A stretch of 64,000 bases of DNA. Source: Tolypothrix sp. PCC 7910. Its GTDB lineage: Bacteria > Cyanobacteriota > Cyanobacteriia > Cyanobacteriales > Nostocaceae. Below are positions 1-10,415 of this stretch, one piece after another; the stretch's first letter is position 1; every line of letters begins with the position of its first letter. The position numbers and the translations under genes were made by a program. A model generated the notes under the pieces. That model searched no databases. It had not been told where the DNA came from and saw only the letters and a program-made list of their open reading frames with translations. The stretch lies in assembly GCF_011769525.1 (NCBI RefSeq), contig NZ_CP050440.1, positions 186,001-250,000 on the forward strand. Direction: 5' to 3'.

Positions 1-1437
1 AACATCAATCAATTGTCTGATGATTGGTCTGAACATACTAAAGATTTACTTGATAGCTTACCCCAAGTTTGGACTAGGGGTATTTTGTATTTGTTACTCA
101 GTTTTATCTCTATTTCTCTACCTTGGGCGATGCTATCAAAAATAGATGAAACTGGTACAGCCAGAGGAAGACTTGAGCCAAAAGGTAAAACATTTCAGTT
201 AGATAGTGCTGTACCAGGGACAGTTACATCTATCCCCGTCAAAGAAGGCGATCTAGTCAAACCTGGAGAACCTGTAATGATATTAGATGCAGACTTAGTT
301 AAGTCTGATTTGCGGCAAAGTAAGGAGAAATTAGAAGGGCAATTAAATAGGCGATCGCAATTAAATCTGCTGAAAAATCAAATCATCGTCTCTTTAGCCA
401 CTCAACGCCAACAAAATCAAGCCCAAGAGTTAGAAAAACAAGCCCAAATTGAGCAAGCACAGCAAAATTTAACGGCTTTAAAAAACTCCTACGAAATTCA
501 ACAAACCGAAAAAATCACCCAAGTTAATCAAGCAAGACAAACTATTGAACAAACTCAAACAGCAAATAAATTGTTAGAAAATAGTCTAACCAGCGCCCAA
601 AGAGAAGTAGAACGCTACAGTAAGCTTAAACAAGCCGGTGCTATTCCCGAAATTAATGTTGTTGATAAGCAAGATATCGCCAAAGACAGACAGAGATTAT
701 ACGAACAAAGTAAATCAGATATCAAACAAGCTAATCTCCGTCTAGCTGAACAACAAAGTAGTTATCAGCGTACAATTCGTCAAGCCAAGGCAGAAATTGA
801 ACAAGCATATTTGCGTTTAAAGGAACAAAAACGCAGTTATCAAACATTAACTCATGCTGGAAAACTAGCAGTACTTAAAAGTGAGGAACAATTAAATAAT
901 TTAGACACAGAAACTACTACCTTACAAGCAGAAATTGCTCAAACTAATAGTCAAATCAACAGCTTGCAATTGCAATTACAGCAACGAGTCTTAAAATCTC
1001 CCATTGCAGGTAGAGTATTTCAACTCCCAATTCAGCGTCCTGGTGCAGTTGTTCAACCTGGAACAATGGTTGCAGAAATTGCTCCCGAAAATTCACCATT
1101 AATTATGCGCGCGCAAATGCCTACATCTGAGAGTGGTTCTTTACGGAAAGGATTGCCCGTAAAACTAAAATTTGATGCCTATCCTTTCCAAGATTATGGA
1201 ATTATTGAAGGTGAGTTATTAGAGATTTCACCAACCACAACAGAAATCGATACACCTAATGGAAAAATCGCTGCATATAATTTAGAAATTGCCCTGAAAA
1301 GTAATTGTATTTCTAGTAAAAATAAATGTACACCTTTACGTCCTGGCGATACAGCAACCGCAGAAGTAATTGTTCGTCAGCGTCGGATTATTGACTTTTT
1401 ACTAGACCCATTCAAACAGTTGCAACAAGGAAGCTAA
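1..1437 (+). CDS. HlyD-family secretion adaptor (5' end outside window)
   Basis: Periplasmic adaptor of an ABC or type I export system, likely for the neighbouring lanthipeptides. The reading frame is open to the left edge, so the true start may lie outside; a TTG at 13 is the first possible start inside. After a short cytoplasmic stretch there is one membrane segment (about residues 24-43), then a lipoyl-like half (GTVTSIPVKEGDLVKPGEPV), a very long Gln-rich coiled coil (about 95-320), the second lipoyl half (RVLKSPIAGRVFQLPIQRPG) and a C-terminal beta-barrel. This is the classic HlyD order. An isomerase gene follows 56 bases after the stop. The partner ABC transporter, probably with a C39 peptidase domain for double-glycine leaders, is expected upstream of the window; that is inference. 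Confidence 0.88.
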   Translation, partial: NINQLSDDWSEHTKDLLDSLPQVWTRGILYLLLSFISISLPWAMLSKIDETGTARGRLEPKGKTFQLDSAVPGTVTSIPVKEGDLVKPGEPVMILDADLVKSDLRQSKEKLEGQLNRRSQLNLLKNQIIVSLATQRQQNQAQELEKQAQIEQAQQNLTALKNSYEIQQTEKITQVNQARQTIEQTQTANKLLENSLTSAQREVERYSKLKQAGAIPEINVVDKQDIAKDRQRLYEQSKSDIKQANLRLAEQQSSYQRTIRQAKAEIEQAYLRLKEQKRSYQTLTHAGKLAVLKSEEQLNNLDTETTTLQAEIAQTNSQINSLQLQLQQRVLKSPIAGRVFQLPIQRPGAVVQPGTMVAEIAPENSPLIMRAQMPTSESGSLRKGLPVKLKFDAYPFQDYGIIEGELLEISPTTTEIDTPNGKIAAYNLEIALKSNCISSKNKCTPLRPGDTATAEVIVRQRRIIDFLLDPFKQLQQGS

Positions 1438-1493
1438 AATTTAATAGCTCATCCTATATTTGTGTAACCGTCAGTTATTTGTGGAGCAAAAAT

Positions 1494-2231
1494 ATGTCGC
1501 AACCCATCACAATCAGCAACCAAGATATTCTGCATATTGTCAAACAATACCGCCAAATCCCTGATTTAATTGAAAAGATTATTACCCATAAGATCATTGA
1601 AATCACTGTATCAAAGCTAGGGATTCAAGTAGAGACTGAGGAGTTGCAAGAAGCAGCAGATAATTTCCGTTTAATGAATGCTCTGGAAACATCTGAAGAC
1701 ACCTGGAAATGGTTGGAAAAACACGCTTTATCTTTAGATGATTTTGAAGAATTAGTTTACCGCAATTTGTTGACTAATAAGTTGGCTCAACATCTATTTG
1801 TAGACAAAGTTGAACCATATTTTTTTGAAAATCAACTAGAATATGCTGGTGCAGTTATATATGAAGTTATCTTGGATGATGAAGATTTAGCAATGGAGTT
1901 ATTTTATGCGGTTAAAGAAGGTGAGACTAGTTTTTATGATGTAGCTAATCAATACATCCAAGATATAGAATTACGTCGAAAATGTGGATATCTAGGGAAA
2001 GTAAATCGTAAAGATTTAAAGCCAGAAATTTCTGCGGCTGTCTTTGCAGCTAAACCTCCCCAACTTCTCAAGCCAATTATTACTTCTAAGGGAGTACATT
2101 TGATTATGGTAGAAGAGATTATTCAACCAGAATTGAGTGAGAAATTAAATTATCAAATTATGTCAGAATTTTTTGACGAGTGGGTAAAGCGGCACATCGC
2201 CAAATTTGAGATTATCAAACAACTGGACTAG
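1494..2231 (+). CDS. Peptidylprolyl isomerase, parvulin/SurA type, linked to peptide export
   Basis: About 245 residues. An N-terminal helical SurA-like part (ITISNQDILHIVKQYRQIPD) precedes a diverged parvulin domain containing RKCGYLGKVNRKDLKPEI and KPIITSKGVHLIMVEEI, the places where parvulins carry their conserved Gly-rich and substrate-contact strands. The ATG at 1494 is chosen because GGAG lies seven bases upstream; a TTG at 1479 would add five residues but has no better ribosome site. Isomerases of this type often sit beside HlyD and C39 ABC transporters in cyanobacterial bacteriocin clusters. A role in folding the exporter or its cargo is inferred. There is no signal peptide, so it probably acts in the cytoplasm or on the inner face of the membrane. 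Confidence 0.75.
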   Translation: MSQPITISNQDILHIVKQYRQIPDLIEKIITHKIIEITVSKLGIQVETEELQEAADNFRLMNALETSEDTWKWLEKHALSLDDFEELVYRNLLTNKLAQHLFVDKVEPYFFENQLEYAGAVIYEVILDDEDLAMELFYAVKEGETSFYDVANQYIQDIELRRKCGYLGKVNRKDLKPEISAAVFAAKPPQLLKPIITSKGVHLIMVEEIIQPELSEKLNYQIMSEFFDEWVKRHIAKFEIIKQLD

Positions 2232-2474: not shown

Positions 2475-2681
2475 CTATGCCATGATCATTGATTCTCCTT
2501 TACACCATACTGAAGTATTGGCACAATTACATGATGGCGTTGGAAAAGTTAAATTAATTCCACCACCAAATATCTGATTATCATCCTCACTGAACTCTTT
2601 TAAGAAGCTTTCTAAATCATTAAACAACTCAGTACCAGCCAAGTTAAGATTCAATAAATCATTGACTTTGATATTAGCCAT
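2475..2681 (-). CDS. Lanthipeptide precursor 3 (double-glycine leader)
   Basis: 68 residues. The leader (residues 1-40) is nearly identical to those of the next two genes: it begins MANIKVNDLLNLNL, continues ELFNDLESFLKEFSEDDNQ and ends IFGG. A 28-residue core follows, with Cys at core positions 11, 13 and 20 and Ser/Thr at 5, 8, 10, 16, 17 and 24. That supplies enough Ser/Thr for up to three thioether rings. The core has no resemblance to the other two cores, which suggests a different product made by the same enzymes. It is the last gene before the terminator at 2332-2372. A stretch reading GAGATAAAATC lies upstream of the ATG, so ribosome binding looks modest. Confidence 0.85.
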   Translation of the reverse strand: MANIKVNDLLNLNLAGTELFNDLESFLKEFSEDDNQIFGGGINLTFPTPSCNCANTSVWCKGESMIMA

Positions 2682-2761
2682 TTGATTTTATCTCCATGAT
2701 TTTTTGTTTTTATTCTGGCTATTAATAAAACAATTTCTGCTTAATTAAAAGTTTTATTAGA

Positions 2762-2786
2762 GATGCATTGACGCGATTTAACGCAT
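2762..2786. repeat. Degenerate palindrome between precursors 2 and 3
   Basis: ATGCATTGA faces TTAACGCAT around a short loop, an imperfect relative of the GGATGCGTTA palindromes found elsewhere in the window. It lies 15-40 bases beyond the stop of precursor 2, at the place equivalent to the perfect hairpin after precursor 1. Confidence 0.45.
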
Positions 2787-2800
2787 TTGTAATAATGTGG

Positions 2801-3022
2801 TTATGCTTGCATACCTACTGCCATCTGTGTAAAATAGATCGTCATCGTCATGCAGACATTCGTCACTTCCTGACAGCTAGTAGGAACGCAATAGCCACCA
2901 TAAATTCTATTAATTTGCTCACTTTCGTCACTCAGTTCAGTCAGAAAACTTTCTGAATCATTAAATAAATCAGCACCATTCATATTGAGATATAATAAAT
3001 CATTTACCTTGATATTATTCAT
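2801..3022 (-). CDS. Lanthipeptide precursor 2 (double-glycine leader)
   Basis: 73 residues. The leader of 43 residues (MNNIKVNDLLYLNMNGADLF, then NDSESFLTELSDESEQINR, ending IYGG) is three residues longer than its siblings just before the cleavage site. The 30-residue core begins YCVPTSCQEVTNVC, so Cys occupies core positions 2, 7 and 14. It shares the spacing of C, CQEVT and C with precursor 1, so both probably form the same ring pattern. The tail is rich in Met, Thr and hydrophobic residues. It lies between precursors 1 and 3, with hairpins on both sides. Confidence 0.85.
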   Translation of the reverse strand: MNNIKVNDLLYLNMNGADLFNDSESFLTELSDESEQINRIYGGYCVPTSCQEVTNVCMTMTIYFTQMAVGMQA

Positions 3023-3098
3023 TTAAGTTGACTCTATAATTTTTTGTTTTTCTTGTGGTTGCCAATCGATTTTTTTGCTTAATTAATAGTTTTATTAA

Positions 3099-3126
3099 GG
3101 ATGCGTTAACGCAATTTAACGCATCC
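3099..3126. repeat. GGATGCGTTA palindrome between precursors 1 and 2
   Basis: Perfect 10-base inverted repeat (GGATGCGTTA / TAACGCATCC) with an eight-base loop, starting 13 bases beyond the stop of precursor 1. Copies of the same family occur at 14674, 18024, 21013 and 21083. Here it could protect the upstream message or limit read-through. Confidence 0.7.
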
Positions 3127-3138
3127 CTAATAATACAA

Positions 3139-3342
3139 TTAGACTAGAGCATGGACTATTATTTGCGTAGTCCTGAGGCAGAGAGGTGTTACCTCCTGAC
3201 AGGTACCAGGAACGCAAGCTGTACCGCCAAATATCTGATTCTCATCTTCACTCAACTCTTTTAAGAAGCTTTCCGAATCGTTAAATAACTCAGCACCAGT
3301 CAGGTTAAGATTCAATAAATCATGTACCTTGATATTAGCCAT
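3139..3342 (-). CDS. Lanthipeptide precursor 1 (double-glycine leader)
   Basis: 67 residues. The leader (1-40) ends NQIFGG, and a 27-residue core begins TACVPGTCQEVTPLC. Cys is at core positions 3, 8 and 15, with five Thr as dehydration candidates, and the tail IIVHALV is hydrophobic. The leader matches the other two precursors over nearly its whole length. The acidic ELSEDE segment is the kind of region recognised by LanM enzymes and C39 peptidases. GGAGAAC lies a few bases upstream of the ATG. It is the first of the three precursor genes and lies 404 bases beyond the LanM stop. Confidence 0.87.
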   Translation of the reverse strand: MANIKVHDLLNLNLTGAELFNDSESFLKELSEDENQIFGGTACVPGTCQEVTPLCLRTTQIIVHALV

Positions 3343-3647
3343 TAGCTTTGTTCTCCATTTTTTTGTTTTTACTTAACTTATTTATAAATCAAACTTTTCT
3401 GCTTGATTTATATTCTTATAATAGCTGTTTAATTTTTCAACAACCATGATAATTTAAGTATTTGGATGACATAAAAAATGCAGTTATTTAACTTTTTTAA
3501 TAAGAGATTTTAGATAAATATGTGAACAGCTATAGCTATATTCGATGTTTTAAAAATTAATTTTTGTTGAATAAAAGCCATATTTAATAGACAAAAGTAA
3601 AATATTTTTGTCACTCTAATGTTATTAGCAAACTTAAAAATAAAAAA
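3343..3647. promoter_or_regulatory. AT-rich leader region ahead of the precursor genes
   Basis: About 300 bases, very rich in A and T, with no convincing reading frame. A terminator-like palindrome (3648-3671) lies between it and LanM, so this stretch probably carries the separate promoter of the precursors. I cannot assign a single -10/-35 pair with confidence. Confidence 0.4.
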
Positions 3648-3671
3648 TCAGCACAAAATTTTGTGCTGATA
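3642..3671 (-). terminator. Terminator after LanM
   Basis: A perfect 24-base palindrome (arms ATCAGCACAAAA / TTTTGTGCTGAT, 3648-3671) is followed on the minus strand by a run of T. It lies 75 bases beyond the LanM stop and separates synthetase from precursor transcription. Confidence 0.72.
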
Positions 3672-3745
3672 AATGAGAAAGTATTCAAAACTCAAATTGT
3701 GATTGATAAAATAGAATTGTTACTTACTTATAGTAAGCAGTTATA

Positions 3746-6700
3746 TCATTCCCCAATTAAGACTGAAGGTAAAGATTCAGGAAATGCTAAACGTAGCAAT
3801 TGATAACCTACACCCGCTTTACCTCGGAAAAAGTTAGAGCTATAGGCGGATTGATAATAGTGAGAAGAAAAAGAATACTCTCCATTTGCTTTTGCCCGTT
3901 CTATAACCCATGCAGCCTGTTTTATGGCAGTGTTTAGCCATTCCTGATTGCCCAGTTTTTGGGATGCTAAAATAAACAGTTCTACTCTACCCATGTGTCC
4001 ACAGCAAAGATGGTCTGTATCTGTGCTAGGCGTTCCATACTTTTGGGTAGTTTCTAAAGCGATATTAATGTCTGAGTAAATTTCCTCTGTCTGTATAATT
4101 GACAAACTACCTAAACGGGCTAACCCAATTCCAGCACTTCCATGACACCATGCGTGCAAGAAATTAATTTGATTTGTTTTTTCGGATAAACGGAAGTCGG
4201 GCCAGTTTTGCACTGATTCATCAAAGACGCTTTTTTCATATTCAATTGCTTCTTTTGCAGCTTCTAAAAAAGCTATATCTGCTGTAGCAGCGTATAACCG
4301 CAATAGAGATAAAGAAATAGCTGCTGCGCCGTGAGAAAAACCAGTTAAAGGTTTTTTGCTTTCTATTGTTACCCATGCTCTAGGTTTGCTATTACTTCGT
4401 TGTGATAATAAATGATTGCCACAGGTAACTGCTATGTCTAAAACAGTTGGTTCACCTGTTTGATCATAAAGGGTCAATAAACCTGGAATAGCTCCCGCAA
4501 CACCCCACATGATGTCAAACTTTTCATCAGTAGCAATTACCTCTTTTGTCAGTAGTTTTGCAGCAAGTTGGGCAGATTCTAAAAGACTTGGATCTTCCAA
4601 AAATTGACTAATTTTAACTAGACTGTAAATAAAACCACCTATACCCAATAAACCAAATTCTGACTCTAGTATTTTTTGGCGGATTTCTGATTTTTTTAGT
4701 GATTGTTGCAAAGGTAATAAAGCAATTAAAGCTACTTCTTTAAATTCATGTTTACCAGTTATTTTTGCTAATGCTGCTAGGAACAAACTCACTCCAGCAC
4801 GTCCTCTATATAAAGAATCATCTAACGGCTGAAGTTGATAGCGGTTAGCCTGGAACATATAACCTAAATTAATCCAGTTGCATCCGTTAGAATTACAAAT
4901 TCCATTAGAGACCAGACTATTGCCAATTTTTACAGCTTCTTGCAGTAATTCTTCATTAGTAAGTGAGTGAAATTGTGGTGAATTACCCTGTAAAGCAGTA
5001 TCTTTCAGGGTTAAATGAGCAAACTTGGCATCAAAACTCATCCGAATTAATTTAATTTGTAGGGCTAAATTCTGTTCATCAAGATTTTGCAGTTGAGTAA
5101 TTAAACTTTGGTAACTGGATATTTTAAAAAACTGCTTGATTAGCTTGTCTCGTTCAATTTCTAAGTCACTGCTATTACAGGATACAGAGAAATAGGGAAT
5201 ATCTTGCTGTTGTAAAAACCTTGTTTCTGCTTGCCAAATTGCCCAATTTTCTGGATTAGCTTCAACTTCTAATAAAGAACGACTAAAAGTATCAATTAAG
5301 CTATTAATCAAAATGCTATATTCTATGCCATTACGCAAAGATTGAGGATTGAGACTGTTTTTAGCGACGATAACATATAGTATGGATGGATGAGGGATAA
5401 ATCGAGACTTTAATGATTTGGTAGTTGATAGAGGGCTGTATTGACCCAACAAAGTTTCTTTATTTTTGATTAATAAGCGGTATATCTCCTCAAAACCAGT
5501 GACAATTTCCTCTACATAGTTCCTGGGTGAAACAGATTTACCTTCTAAAATTACCGCATTAGTACCAGAAGGAATAATTGCTGTTTTAGAAGTTAGATGC
5601 ATTCCATCTGTATTAATAAATTGCCACTCTCTAGAAGCATTGACTTGTTGGGGATAAATATTGCCCAGGACACTGGAATCTTGAGCATTGGCTGAGAATG
5701 TATTACCTTCCCAAGCAGGTAAAAATCCCGCTTTTAGAACTGAATCTTGAAACCAGTCTTCTGATTCATCATTACTTTTAACTATAGGCTGCATTAATAT
5801 GTCAGCATCAATCAGAATTGAATATTCAGAATTGGCGATCACATTTTCTGAGCCACAGTCTTTAGCGCCTAATACAAACAGCAGTGATAATAACATTCCG
5901 GCTCTTTTATAAAAGTTGTTGACTGCGGTTTGATTCTCACAAGGTTGGTGAGCAATAAATTCAACCCAGGCATATTCTTGTCGTTGAAGAATTTTGGTAA
6001 TTTTAAATGGTAAAGATATTCTTTGTTGATTACACCAATCTAGTAAATTATTAAAAGCTACATCTAAGCTCAAATCTTTAGGTTTATAGACAATTTTGAT
6101 TCCTGAATCAAAGGTAATAGCTAAAATACTGCGTCCACCATGATGACGGTTTGATAGCGATGTTTCTATTTCCTTTACTTTTCCTAGGTTTGTATCTTCA
6201 GAGAAAGTCTGCTCAATTTCTGTGATGTCAGCTTGTAACCTTTGGATAAATTCAGTGGTATTAGTTACCCAAAAATTAATATTAGTGGCGATCAGTCTTG
6301 CTAAAACAGGGTAATCCTCAAAAAACTTTAAGCCTCCATCTTCAAGAATATTTTGAATGAATTGATCATAAAGAATTCGATTTTTACTTTCTTCTGTATG
6401 GTTATCTTGCTTTGCAGAAGCTTGATTTGAGCGCAATTTATCAAACTCAAATAATAATGTTTCGGTACCTAAACTTACTAGTTGTTGCAGTAAGCCATAT
6501 TCTAAAGTTAAATATGCTTCTGTACTTAATAACACTAAATCATGATTTAGAGATAACGCCGCAGATAATTTACGGCGTGCTACTAAGATAAATGGAAAAT
6601 AAAAATCTTCAAAAGGTAAAGGTTTTTGGGAATCAAGTGGTAATTTTTCTGCTACTTCTAGATTTAGTAAAGATATACCACTTTCAACTAATTCTTTTAG

Positions 6701-6976
6701 GGTTTCTGCCCAAGCTGGTAATTTATCATCTTTACCAAAACCTGCTGTTACTAATAAAGAACGTACTATATTGAAATCTAATCCATCCCAATGAAGACGT
6801 TGTTTTAGCTTTTCTTCTCCGCCAATTGCTTGACACCAATTTTGCAGACGTTTTTCAATTAGGTTTTGATCAAGTTGCTGAGAATTTATATTGTGGTAAT
6901 CTTTGGTATTGAAGTTTTCAGACAGGAAAGTAGCGTTAATAACTATTTGGGATATTTTTGAGTCAGATATTTTCAT
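3746..6976 (-). CDS. lanM: LanM lanthipeptide synthetase with altered dehydratase residues
   Basis: 1076 residues, normal length for a LanM. The N-terminal two thirds are a DUF4135 dehydratase fold and the C-terminal part (about 690-1076) is a LanC cyclase. The cyclase looks intact: GFSHGAA (His882), AWCHG (Cys944) and LCCGHMG (Cys991, Cys992), the three-Cys zinc pattern known from ProcM. The dehydratase is unusual. The family motif G-D-x-H is S-N-R-H (275-278); D-x-H-x-E-N is DCGSEN (373-378), so the His is Gly; D-x-E is DAD (390-392); and R-F-x-x-R-P-T is RFIPHPS (525-531). The lysine in VYKPK (Lys298) is kept. It lies 48 bases after the HopA1-like gene and after a kinase gene, all in one direction. 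It may cyclise only, with dehydration supplied by its neighbours; residual dehydratase activity cannot be excluded. Confidence 0.9.
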   Translation of the reverse strand: MKISDSKISQIVINATFLSENFNTKDYHNINSQQLDQNLIEKRLQNWCQAIGGEEKLKQRLHWDGLDFNIVRSLLVTAGFGKDDKLPAWAETLKELVESGISLLNLEVAEKLPLDSQKPLPFEDFYFPFILVARRKLSAALSLNHDLVLLSTEAYLTLEYGLLQQLVSLGTETLLFEFDKLRSNQASAKQDNHTEESKNRILYDQFIQNILEDGGLKFFEDYPVLARLIATNINFWVTNTTEFIQRLQADITEIEQTFSEDTNLGKVKEIETSLSNRHHGGRSILAITFDSGIKIVYKPKDLSLDVAFNNLLDWCNQQRISLPFKITKILQRQEYAWVEFIAHQPCENQTAVNNFYKRAGMLLSLLFVLGAKDCGSENVIANSEYSILIDADILMQPIVKSNDESEDWFQDSVLKAGFLPAWEGNTFSANAQDSSVLGNIYPQQVNASREWQFINTDGMHLTSKTAIIPSGTNAVILEGKSVSPRNYVEEIVTGFEEIYRLLIKNKETLLGQYSPLSTTKSLKSRFIPHPSILYVIVAKNSLNPQSLRNGIEYSILINSLIDTFSRSLLEVEANPENWAIWQAETRFLQQQDIPYFSVSCNSSDLEIERDKLIKQFFKISSYQSLITQLQNLDEQNLALQIKLIRMSFDAKFAHLTLKDTALQGNSPQFHSLTNEELLQEAVKIGNSLVSNGICNSNGCNWINLGYMFQANRYQLQPLDDSLYRGRAGVSLFLAALAKITGKHEFKEVALIALLPLQQSLKKSEIRQKILESEFGLLGIGGFIYSLVKISQFLEDPSLLESAQLAAKLLTKEVIATDEKFDIMWGVAGAIPGLLTLYDQTGEPTVLDIAVTCGNHLLSQRSNSKPRAWVTIESKKPLTGFSHGAAAISLSLLRLYAATADIAFLEAAKEAIEYEKSVFDESVQNWPDFRLSEKTNQINFLHAWCHGSAGIGLARLGSLSIIQTEEIYSDINIALETTQKYGTPSTDTDHLCCGHMGRVELFILASQKLGNQEWLNTAIKQAAWVIERAKANGEYSFSSHYYQSAYSSNFFRGKAGVGYQLLRLAFPESLPSVLIGE

Positions 6977-7024
6977 TTTATTATTCTCGATAAACTTTAG
7001 TTAAGTATTTTCTAATTACATTAG

Positions 7025-8137
7025 CTAAGATAGGTTTAGGACTTGGTAAATATCTTCAGAATTAGCATTGAGATGAACACGTTCTAAATCAATTCCTAGC
7101 TGCAAAAATTGCTCTTGAATTGCTTGTATCCGTCTTTGAGGGGAATTATCTCCTTGATACCAAGCTGTGAGTAACCCATTTGCAATTATCTGACAGCGAT
7201 TCATGCCAAAACTTTCTTGTTCGGCAAACTTTTGATTTGGTTCTTCTGCTAAACCTAAACCTGGTGCTAGTTCCTTGGTGAATAGAGGAATTTCTGATTT
7301 AAAGTATTCACGATTTTCAAGATAAATATTACTTAATAATTTGCTCAACAATTCATAATCACTTTTATCGAAATACAAGACTCCAGAATCGTAGCGATTA
7401 TAATCTTTGGGATGGTATAAAACCTTAAGTTGAAAAGGTATATTTATCTGATTTAAATGCTGTGTTATATTACCCATAACAGCAATAGCACCTGCTGGGG
7501 TGAGATTGAAATATATCCGCACAATTTGTAGATTTGCTGCATTAGAGCGAGATAATCCGGCATTACTAACTGCCATGTAAAAGCCGCTTTGGACAATATT
7601 TTTTGGCATTTTAATCGGAACTAAATCGCCGATAGTAGCAGATGTGTGAGATGAAGGTAAATGTTTATCACGTTGAATGTGCAGCCTCAAACCAGCCTTA
7701 CTAACTATTAAGCTATTATCACTCTCTTCTTTTAAGATTGACCATCCTGACTGAAAATATCCCTCTCCATAATTACTTTCGTGCAACTGTTTATAAAAAG
7801 CTACATCTACCCCTAAAACTGTATTATTTTCTAAATCTAATGGTAAATTATTTGTTTTTTTATCGCCTGCTAGTTCACTTCGCATTGAGCCGTTGTAATA
7901 AATACCATAAAGAAAACTTCGCAATTGCAAACTGAGATATTTTTGCTGAATTTCTTCAGAAAATTTTTGAAAGCGTTCAACAGCCTCAGCAGGTACTTCT
8001 AAGGGTTGATAATCTGGATGGCGAATGGAAAAATCAGAGCGAATTTCAATGTTGTTAACAATATCCTCGAGAACATCGACTAAGCGCTGATTTATGCCAG
8101 GGTTAAGCTGAGTTTGCACAGAATTAAGTAATTGCAT
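7025..8137 (-). CDS. HopA1-like protein, probable phospho-Ser/Thr lyase partner
   Basis: 370 residues. The C-terminal two thirds match the HopA1 effector-like family: IVRIYFNLTPAGAIAVMGNI, a segment ending PFQLKVLYHPKDYNRYDSGV, then LYFDKSDYELLSKLL. Members were first named from a Pseudomonas effector. In class V lanthipeptide and thioamitide pathways a HopA1-like protein pairs with an APH-like kinase to dehydrate Ser and Thr. Here it lies 24 bases after such a kinase and 48 bases before LanM, so the same role is the best guess. No signal peptide or membrane segment is seen. I cannot point to catalytic residues with certainty. Confidence 0.78.
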   Translation of the reverse strand: MQLLNSVQTQLNPGINQRLVDVLEDIVNNIEIRSDFSIRHPDYQPLEVPAEAVERFQKFSEEIQQKYLSLQLRSFLYGIYYNGSMRSELAGDKKTNNLPLDLENNTVLGVDVAFYKQLHESNYGEGYFQSGWSILKEESDNSLIVSKAGLRLHIQRDKHLPSSHTSATIGDLVPIKMPKNIVQSGFYMAVSNAGLSRSNAANLQIVRIYFNLTPAGAIAVMGNITQHLNQINIPFQLKVLYHPKDYNRYDSGVLYFDKSDYELLSKLLSNIYLENREYFKSEIPLFTKELAPGLGLAEEPNQKFAEQESFGMNRCQIIANGLLTAWYQGDNSPQRRIQAIQEQFLQLGIDLERVHLNANSEDIYQVLNLS

Positions 8138-8161
8138 AATGATTGAATGATAAAAAGTCTA

Positions 8162-9325
8162 TTAAGCAGTTAAAGCAGTTTGCTGAATTAATTCGCTTGT
8201 ACCAATCGCACCAAAAATTGTTGGTATTGACTGTTCTGGACGACATAATAAACTTTTAGCAACCTGAAGCATGGCAATACCTGTATTGCCAAAAGATTTT
8301 TGATACTGAATCATTGCTTGAATCCCTTGAATTAAAGCAAAACCTGTAAATTGCATCACACGCAGCAAGAAATCAGGACGGTGTTTTAAAATTTCTGGGA
8401 ATGTCTGCAAATAAACTTGGGTTAATGTCGCAATTGAAGGCTGAAGCTTTTCTAGGGGAGTTATCGCTAAACTTAGAGATTCTTCCAGACTCAAAGATTT
8501 ACTGATAACTAAGCTACCCAGCCATAATTGGACGTAGCTACTAATTAGTGTTCCTAAATCAAATGCGGGATCTCCCCAAGCAGAACGTTCCCAATCAATT
8601 ATGCGGATAATATTGTTAGTTGATTGCTGCCAATTGTGATGAAGTAATATATTATTTAGCTTGAGATCATTGTGAGTTAAACAACAAGGAATCACAGCAT
8701 TACCCAATTTTTTTAAAGCTGTTCCTAAGCTATCAAAACGTTGATATAGGGCAAAAAATCTTAACCCATCATTAGGGACTAAACCAAAAATTTCTGGTTC
8801 TATTATTTCTAAATACTGAACTATTTTTCTTACTTGTTCTGTGTAAGAATTATCTGAATTAACCGATAGGAAATTCTGATATTCTTGATAGTTGAAAGTA
8901 TGACGATGAATATTAGCTAAGAAATTACCTATTGCCGCGGCAATTTTACTATCAAAAATTTTCTCTTTGGTATAAAATTCCATTAAATCTTGATAATCAT
9001 CTAGATATCTCGCTACCATAATGGAATTGTCTGCATCATAATGCAGTATTTCTGGTAGAGAAGGGCGAAGATGATTTAATTCAGGAAATTTTTGTACAAA
9101 TTTTTGAATGCGCCACTCACTTAAAAATTCTCCCGATGCTTTTCCTTCGTGATTGTGCCGTTCTTGCTTGACTAACAGTTTTTGATGATTTGGCAGTGTT
9201 AGTAATAAATTAAAATTTTTAGCAGATTTTAATTCTATGTCAATCTGGTTTGTTTCGCTTGGAGAACAAAGGTTATGTCTAGCTAAATAATCGCAGACAT
9301 TCTGAGCATTTAATAAAAAAGTCAT
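8162..9325 (-). CDS. Aminoglycoside-phosphotransferase-like kinase of the lanthipeptide locus
   Basis: 387 residues, APH/choline-kinase fold. The catalytic loop reads THNDLKLNNIL (His218, Asp220, Asn225) and the metal-binding motif reads IIDWERSAWGDP (Asp244). A candidate ATP lysine is in LLVKQERHN (Lys53). All core kinase residues are therefore present. It is the first gene of the minus-strand set kinase, HopA1-like, LanM (24 and 48 bases apart), which argues that its substrate is the precursor peptide rather than an antibiotic. In class V lanthipeptides such kinases phosphorylate Ser/Thr before elimination. An unrelated small-molecule kinase remains possible. Confidence 0.8.
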   Translation of the reverse strand: MTFLLNAQNVCDYLARHNLCSPSETNQIDIELKSAKNFNLLLTLPNHQKLLVKQERHNHEGKASGEFLSEWRIQKFVQKFPELNHLRPSLPEILHYDADNSIMVARYLDDYQDLMEFYTKEKIFDSKIAAAIGNFLANIHRHTFNYQEYQNFLSVNSDNSYTEQVRKIVQYLEIIEPEIFGLVPNDGLRFFALYQRFDSLGTALKKLGNAVIPCCLTHNDLKLNNILLHHNWQQSTNNIIRIIDWERSAWGDPAFDLGTLISSYVQLWLGSLVISKSLSLEESLSLAITPLEKLQPSIATLTQVYLQTFPEILKHRPDFLLRVMQFTGFALIQGIQAMIQYQKSFGNTGIAMLQVAKSLLCRPEQSIPTIFGAIGTSELIQQTALTA

Positions 9326-10049
9326 GGGTAACTGAAAAATATCAGATTTTGCATTTAGCAGGTTACTGCTGTTAAGCTATTCTGCTTTTAAGTTGCATAA
9401 TCCATCATGAGGGCTGTTGACAGTTGACCGTTAACATTTAAATGTCAACAGCCCTTATTAGTATTTATACAATTTAGAGGCGCATTAGCCTAATTACTAT
9501 CTTCTGCAAGGATTTGATATTTTTCTAGAATTGTTAAATTCTAAAAGTGACAAAAAAAATCTAGTTTGAACCTATTATTTAGGGTAAATTACCTAGAAAA
9601 TATGTTTATGAGTAGAGATATTGATGATCTGGAATGATTACTATAATATTTATGTCCTATTTTGATGCGATCGCACCTCATAAGCTGGTATGCATTTAAG
9701 TTGCACATTCTCTTTTTGAGACTGTCATTTGCCTTTTGTAAATACAAATGGCAAATGACTAATGACGAAGGGATACCTTCACGGGTAGTTATGTAATTTA
9801 GATGTTTTTGAGCTTACTACCCTAAATATAGGGTTTAGCATTACTTGCCCATAAAATCAACGATAATCTGTACATCACCAAACTGTAATCTGCTGTATAT
9901 ACTTCCCTAAAGAAGGCGGGGTAAAGGGTAAGGGGAAAAAGGTAAAAGGGATAAAAACTTTTCCCTTGCTTTATTGCAATAATATAGACAATCTCTGAGC
10001 AGGCGCTTGCTATCATCTAAAGTTTTCACCATTTTTTAAATTCCTTTGT
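9326..10049. other. Gene-poor stretch upstream of the kinase operon
   Basis: No gene could be supported. It holds a 12-base stem, AGGGCTGTTGAC (9410-9421) with GTCAACAGCCCT (9444-9455), whose loop contains a near-perfect palindrome around GTTAAC. This lies 85 bases upstream of the kinase start and lacks a T-run in that direction. A second hairpin (CATTTGCC 9726-9733 / GGCAAATG 9750-9757) follows. The promoter of the kinase-HopA1-LanM unit should lie between 9326 and about 9600. Confidence 0.4.
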
Positions 10050-10262
10050 TTATTTTATAGTTAGTAGCTGATTGCTAAATTCTTGGAGTTGATGGTGAAT
10101 CCAATCGCTACCTCTAGCTGTACATTGGGGACAAATATCTCCGTAGCCGTCACCTTCGTCATTGCAAACAATTAATCTTGCTGCCAACATCTGAAAACTT
10201 TGATGGCAAATTAAACAAACTTTGCGAGTTTTTTCTGTATTGCATTCTATTTGAAATTGCAT
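10050..10262 (-). CDS. Small four-Cys (zinc-ribbon-like) protein
   Basis: 70 residues starting MQFQIECNTEKTRKVCLICH. The ATG at 10262 is preferred over a start 24 bases earlier because TTAGGAGAA lies just before it. Two pairs, CLIC and CPQC, spaced about 30 residues apart suggest a structural zinc site. The middle contains NDEGDGYGD. No family is recognised and the neighbours give no clue. It is likely a soluble cytoplasmic protein. Confidence 0.6.
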   Translation of the reverse strand: MQFQIECNTEKTRKVCLICHQSFQMLAARLIVCNDEGDGYGDICPQCTARGSDWIHHQLQEFSNQLLTIK

Positions 10263-10415
10263 ATTTTTTCTCCTAATTGAAGGCAATTAAATAAATTAAT
10301 TCTTGAGCAAATGGATAAAATCACTCACTGAAAAATTATTAAAGTCTCTGACAAACCGCACCTACAAATAGATGCGGTTGTTTATAGAAGAAGCTTCCTT
10401 TAAACAATAGGTGAG

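Follow-up and report, generated by a model that had tools for sequence, protein, structure and literature searches.

The window analysed here, a stretch of 64,000 nucleotides from the cyanobacterium Tolypothrix sp. PCC 7910 (contig NZ_CP050440.1, positions 186,001 to 250,000 of the forward strand), carries a lanthipeptide locus in which genes for an APH-like kinase, a HopA1-like protein and a LanM synthetase follow one another on the minus strand, with intergenic gaps of 24 and 48 bases, and are followed by three precursor genes. Comparison of this locus with its relatives makes it probable that the kinase and the HopA1-like protein dehydrate the precursors and that LanM only cyclises them, i.e. 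that dehydration of the class V type is coupled to a cyclase derived from class II. A preliminary description of this DNA had noted the gene run and its gaps, and both the coordinates and the hidden Markov model matches (Table 1) agree with it; the three double-glycine precursors that it placed downstream of LanM were also located, with GG preceding a Cys-bearing core in each. For the chemistry it had offered two alternatives, dehydration in trans with LanM acting mainly as a cyclase, or action of both systems on different residues. The first of these is favoured by the comparative evidence at the sequence level, as the dehydratase site is changed in 16 of 16 related LanMs, the cyclase site is intact in all 16, and the kinase and HopA1 sites are intact at 12 of 12 linked loci; the second is less favoured. 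The preliminary description had made no mention of altered active-site residues.

The related LanMs were collected from three overlapping genome samples. Of the 217 genomes in the family sample, 112 had a LanM-like match (E at most 1e-100). Ten of the family matches stood apart, with 61-100% identity to the window LanM; no other exceeded 47%. The order sample (388 genomes) yielded six further members of this clade (54-65% identity to the window LanM), and the phylum sample (386 genomes) no additional one; in the order and phylum searches strict cut-offs were used and the best two or three candidates were scored per genome. The clade thus comprises so far 16 genes from 14 cyanobacterial genomes in four families, a number which is a lower bound. 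In a quick tree from which the dehydratase columns were omitted, it forms one side of a branch with a Shimodaira-Hasegawa-like approximate likelihood ratio test (SH-aLRT) support of 100.

To describe the dehydratase site we used the nine residues studied by alanine mutagenesis in CylM (PMC4550811; here and below, statements from the literature refer to the available parts of the cited texts). Mutation of D347 or D364 abolished CylM activity and that of H349, N352 or K274 nearly did so, while mutation of D252, H254, R506 or T512 weakened elimination, which T512A could not carry out at all. The nine sites were located in our alignment from sequence motifs and residue spacing, guided by a LicM2 alignment. 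In the window LanM, D252 is replaced by N276, H349 by G375 and T512 by S531, and D392 stands in place of a near-invariant Glu. Every clade LanM (16/16) displays at least one change besides T512S among the nine sites; elsewhere, such changes were seen in two (both at H349) of 28 LanMs whose cyclase site is intact and in none of 11 in which it is broken. By site, the numbers of changed clade members (n=16) are 14 for D252, 1 for H254, 0 for K274, 9 for D347, 13 for H349, 3 for N352, 0 for D364, 2 for R506 and 10 for T512; D347, indispensable in CylM, has become N, S or K in its nine cases. The near-invariant Glu two residues past D364 is Asp in the entire clade. The patterns vary by sublineage, the window type being N/G/S at D252/H349/T512; L023 combines D347N with T512A, L065 D252E with D347K, L059-L061 share D252N, D347S and H349D, and L064 has six changes among the nine sites. 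Mapped on the tree, at least four changes occurred at each of D252 and D347. When catalytic cells were compared with other near-invariant cells of the alignment, seven of the nine sites having passed the invariance filter, 29/112 of the former and 61/544 of the latter were changed (Fisher p 1.3e-4; the cells are not independent).

The cyclase site, on the other hand, is kept. C944, C991, C992 and H882 are all present in the LanC domain of the window protein, and all 16 clade members retain the three cysteines, presumably the residues that bind zinc in LanMs of this type, together with the acid/base His of the GFSHG-type motif. Among near-invariant columns, 13.7% of the cells were changed in the dehydratase half versus 9.4% in the LanC half.

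The preliminary description had also proposed a search of cyanobacterial genomes for the same three-gene grouping. In the stretches fetched around the clade genes (mostly about 8 kb on each side, shorter at contig ends), both an APH and a HopA1 gene lie on the same strand as LanM for 12 of the 16, and a thirteenth clade LanM, L061, lies in the L060 cluster as its second LanM. Around other LanMs, APH or HopA1 relatives were found at 0 of 36 loci (39 LanM genes; L015, L028-L058 and L066-L069), which were hand-picked from the search listings (31 + 4 + 1) and are not a random sample. The grouping therefore recurs, and the difference between 12/16 and 0/36 indicates a gene association that exceeds chance. 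In the genomes of two clade members that have no pair nearby (L059 and L064), a kinase/HopA1 pair is located elsewhere (L077 and L078), and the HopA1 tree places both of these pairs among those linked to a LanM.

Joint dehydration by an APH-like kinase and a HopA1-like protein in class V, on which the preliminary description had relied, is established (PMC9486802). R207, K238, R248 and Y255 of the window HopA1-like protein correspond, by motif and spacing, to R187, K219, R229 and Y236 of CaoY, in which elimination was abolished or reduced by R187A, K219A and R229Q (PMC9486802). In the window kinase, HxDxxxxN, DWE and the Lys are all intact. At the linked loci the HopA1 R/K/R/Y equivalents and the HxDxxxxN and DWE motifs of the kinase are likewise intact in 12/12. 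The window kinase scores 80 bits with the NCBIfam LxmK model, far below its equivalog cut-off of 315, and the HopA1-like protein matches the sequence of PDB entry 9dk1, named 'Lyase', at E 1.4e-6. In both the HopA1 and the kinase tree, LanM-linked, reductase-linked and other loci are intermixed, such that the LanM label requires 4 and 6 changes, respectively; this is what would be expected if partners are exchanged. Of the 217 family genomes, 78 contain a close relative of the window HopA1 (E 1e-137 or better), and among 20 such loci sampled, five have an aldo/keto reductase and none an intact LanM. At one of the 20, L105, the kinase/HopA1 pair and a precursor rich in Cys are accompanied by a LanM-like fragment of 111 residues (8353-8688 on the minus strand; 56% identity), probably a relic of a lost LanM.

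Precursors were sought with a leader model built from seven leaders of the host genome. It gave 0 matches at the 36 other LanM loci, which assigns the peptides to the kinase/HopA1 systems, and the leaders are common to LanM loci and to loci with an aldo/keto reductase. The cores differ: 42 of the 43 at the LanM-clade loci contain a Cys, and the corresponding figures are 1/23 for seven reductase loci, 7/21 for 18 other kinase/HopA1 loci and 8/43 for a further sample of kinase/HopA1 loci without a clade LanM. These counts are not independent, related loci sharing ancestry. The 43 and 23 cores derive from 44 and 25 precursors, the remainder having no recognisable GG/GA cut; at least one LanM-locus row contained masked letters, and cut sites were assigned automatically, a few of them too early. 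The main count was deduplicated; the further sample was not (one core was counted three times), and four core-less rows were dropped from it. As far as sequences can tell, the core cysteines, which a cyclase needs, appear and vanish together with the clade LanM.

In the mechanism that we propose, the APH-like kinase would phosphorylate Ser and Thr of the core, and the HopA1-like lyase would eliminate the phosphate to give dehydroalanine or dehydrobutyrine. LanM, its own kinase/eliminase centre being eroded, would then add Cys thiols through its zinc LanC domain to form (methyl)lanthionine rings, and a C39-ABC/HlyD system would cleave at the double glycine and export the product. We infer these reactions, their order, and the role of the DUF4135 domain as a scaffold or leader-docking part.

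A number of observations weigh against this proposal. The window LanM retains D347, K274, N352, D364, H254 and R506, and since D347 is kept, residual dehydration by this protein is possible; K274 and D364 are retained in all 16 clade members, T512S is a mild substitution, and CylM H349A was slow, not dead (PMC4550811). The dehydratase domain is under purifying selection, with a ratio of nonsynonymous to synonymous rates (dN/dS) of 0.21-0.28 in ten close pairs, which indicates that the DUF4135 domain is still doing something, and the dehydratase/LanC divergence ratio has a median of 1.07 in the clade and of 1.07 in other LanMs. In the cyclase half, three near-invariant LanC columns are replaced in 16/16, so that this half too has peculiarities. 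As to the genomic setting, three of the 16 clade genes have no pair nearby (L065, at a contig edge, L059 and L064), a separate precursor, free of Cys, accompanies the L078 pair, the leader model detected no leader-family precursor at the linked locus L063, and HopA1 is present in 214 of 217 family genomes; for this last reason the mere occurrence of HopA1 in the same genome was dismissed as evidence.

One alternative is a division of labour, in which LanM dehydrates some residues and the kinase/HopA1 pair others. It would fit the six residues retained in the window LanM, the selection on its dehydratase domain and the slow activity retained by CylM H349A and H254A (PMC4550811); we nevertheless consider it unlikely, as loss of D347 in 9/16 and of D252 in 14/16 clade members means that neither the phosphorylation nor the elimination residues are conserved. 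It is less probable still that two unrelated pathways, a kinase/HopA1 system for ribosomally synthesised and post-translationally modified peptides and an independent LanM, happen to be neighbours. The same kinase/HopA1 lineage does occur at many loci without a clade LanM, and LanM lies apart from the pair in two genomes, but the linkage at 12 of 16 loci spans four families, the precursors carry the leader family of kinase/HopA1 loci, found at none of the 36 other LanM loci, and the dehydratase site of LanM is eroded. An additional scenario is that LanM is no longer an enzyme and serves as a chaperone, with rings that are spontaneous or absent. According to a review (PMC12328550), class Va lanthipeptides need no dedicated LanC for cyclisation, and the LanM fragment persisting beside the pair in L105 would suit such a role; against it stand the zinc ligands and His intact in 16/16, purifying selection on the LanC half (dN/dS 0.21-0.35 in the same number of close pairs, ten) and the core cysteines that follow the occurrence of LanM, and we regard it as very improbable. 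Dehydration by the pair followed by cyclisation by LanM hence remains the favoured reading.

What the DUF4135 domain does in such a synthetase was also considered. Decay of the entire dehydratase domain by drift was ruled out by the equal divergence ratios (1.07 vs 1.07) and its dN/dS of 0.21-0.28. Catalysis may have been lost and the fold retained for another use, e.g. leader binding or docking of the kinase/HopA1 pair. A more specific and tentative suggestion, which we hold to be somewhat less probable than not, is that the domain is a pseudo-dehydratase, an idle yet nucleotide-binding scaffold for the leader or for the pair; the three proteins would then form a class V plus class II synthetase, with reductase and LanM as exchangeable partners of one cyanobacterial dehydratase. 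The nucleotide-binding part of this suggestion derives from the retention of K274 and D364 in all 16 clade members. In a separate observation, the synonymous divergence (dS) between the window LanM and those of L019-L022 was, in each of ten pairs, higher in the LanC half (0.26-0.66) than in the half with the dehydratase (0.10-0.22), a hint that the cyclase half may have recombined.

The locus falls between the lanthipeptide classes as currently drawn. It has the DUF4135 plus LanC-like architecture, the zinc site and the His of class II, while the nine dehydratase residues are not all intact; it has the APH kinase adjoining a HopA1 lyase with catalytic residues of class V, a class defined by the absence of a class I-IV synthetase from the cluster, and here LanM is the third gene; and in place of the stand-alone LanC of class Vb it has a LanC domain fused to DUF4135. 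Class Vb is described for SmoA, with LanK/LanY and the LanC SmoC, and class V as known only from actinobacteria (review PMC12328550). The window system resembles class Vb in that an APH kinase and a HopA1 lyase would dehydrate and a LanC-fold zinc cyclase is predicted to close the rings, and differs in having a full LanM with an eroded DUF4135 domain where the cyclase of class Vb is described as LanC, in being cyanobacterial, and in its leaders. With class Va (cacaoidin CaoK/CaoY) it shares the kinase/HopA1 pair with the same catalytic residues; in the available text of PMC9486802 that class is described without class I-IV synthetases or LanM, and with a LanX-type second APH protein and a Cys decarboxylase. 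Type-B precursor candidates were found solely in cyanobacteria according to the same source. The cyanobacterial HopA1/phosphotransferase Family 1A (Eyles 2021, PMC8153245) similarly has double-glycine leaders and several non-identical precursors; its description in section 16 of that paper, with which alone the comparison was made, contains no mention of a LanM with an eroded dehydratase.

Among class II enzymes, the window LanM resembles CylM (PMC4550811) and, in the alignment, LicM2 in domain order, length and zinc cyclase; residues required for dehydration by CylM are, however, changed in the clade. A LanM lineage without dehydratase residues is represented by the degenerate LanM-like CA_C0082 of Clostridium, a quorum-sensing effector which, in contrast to the window LanM, is described as also lacking the zinc site, other lanthipeptide genes and a portion of the dehydratase domain (PMC10301443). 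A LanM with an eroded dehydratase beside a kinase and HopA1 was not found in a search of full-text literature, subscription papers and supplements lying outside that search. As the combination of kinase, HopA1 and stand-alone LanC is already known in class Vb, what appears new is class V dehydration together with a class II-derived cyclase.

If the proposal is true, an enzyme with two jobs ceded one of them to a pair of borrowed enzymes and retained the domain that this left idle. The locus offers a direct test of whether the two LanM halves are separable, blurs the current lanthipeptide classes, each of which is defined by one enzyme set, and calls for caution with genome-mining tools, by which the cluster would be labelled plain class II.

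The features of the locus are collected in Table 1. In the window LanM the DUF4135 dehydratase spans residues 222-598 and the LanC-like cyclase residues 717-1073. The hairpin between LanM and the precursors is weakly supported, with 5 comparable sites in the region and 3.8 expected from shuffles. The PpiC-like gene, which occurs at most linked loci, encodes a protein whose top NCBIfam match is TIGR04500 (putative peptide maturation; 74 bits, below the cut-off of 180).

Table 1. Features of the kinase/HopA1/LanM locus (positions in the window; the last row gives positions in the host genome, G000).
Feature	Position	Strand	Match
APH-like kinase (LanK-like), 387 aa, opens the gene run	8162..9325	-	PF01636, 48 bits (cut-off 23.2)
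HopA1-like putative phospho-Ser/Thr lyase (LanY-like), 370 aa	7025..8137	-	PF17914, 204 bits (cut-off 22.7)
LanM, 1076 aa	3746..6976	-	TIGR03897, 915 bits (cut-off 304); DUF4135, 393 bits; LANC_like, 223 bits
Terminator-like hairpin, 10-pair stem and T-rich tail, between LanM and precursors	3647..3670	-	
Precursor 1, 67 aa, core TACVPGTCQEVTPLCLRTTQIIVHALV	3139..3342	-	leader family, E 2.1e-21
Precursor 2, 73 aa, core YCVPTSCQEVTNVCMTMTIYFTQMAVGMQA	2801..3022	-	leader family, E 1.1e-20
Precursor 3, 68 aa, core GINLTFPTPSCNCANTSVWCKGESMIMA	2475..2681	-	leader family, E 5.6e-20
PpiC-like protein, divergent from the gene run	1479..2231	+	PF00639
HlyD-type exporter adaptor, gene start left of the window	13..1437	+	TIGR01843, 226 bits (above cut-off)
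C39-peptidase ABC transporter, just beyond the window	G000:C1:182803-185580		Peptidase_C39, ABC_membrane, ABC_tran

The host genome (8.76 Mb) contains six HopA1 loci, each with an adjoining APH gene, and two LanMs, which are its only LANC_like matches. Only the HopA1 gene of the window has an adjoining LanM; the second LanM (L015) possesses all nine dehydratase residues. At three of the other HopA1 loci (L010, L011 and L012, the last on a 52-kb contig) an aldo/keto reductase takes the place of LanM, with PF00248 detected in the L011 protein, and at L013 neither a LanM nor a reductase is present. At L014 (G000:C1:5440000-5456000) the HopA1/APH pair (7852-8940 and 9131-10366, minus strand) lies among UbiA, MenC-like, AMP-binding and thioesterase genes, and no leader-family precursor was found there with the leader model. 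In the HopA1 proteins of L014, L089, L093, L094 and L095, which form one tree group, Gln replaces the catalytic Lys in 5/5, and these proteins perhaps have a role other than that of a lyase.

Loci L010, L011, L012 and L079-L082 combine kinase, HopA1, aldo/keto reductase and a second PpiC-like gene; their cores are rich in Ser/Thr and almost devoid of Cys, and these loci may produce D-alanine or D-aminobutyrate residues by reduction of dehydrated ones. A mirror image was seen at L051 (0.9-17.1 kb) and L052 (0.5-13.9 kb), where all nine dehydratase residues are present in the LanMs but zinc ligands or the His have been lost. These LanMs adjoin the same kind of reductase; their precursors have nearly Cys-free cores and leaders of a different type, which we take to be NHLP-like. 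It thus appears that either half of LanM is lost where other proteins carry out its chemistry or where that chemistry is unneeded. Taken together with the pair-plus-reductase loci, these broken-cyclase LanMs suggest that dehydratase, cyclase and reductase form a set of interchangeable parts, which would be useful in peptide engineering. In a further group of LanMs (L043, L044, L045, L047 and L048), Phe-Asp and Glu-Cys replace zinc-site residues; no recognisable precursor was found in the open reading frame listings of L045 and L048, the two of these five loci that were listed, and the dehydratase residues of the group are kept except for T512S.

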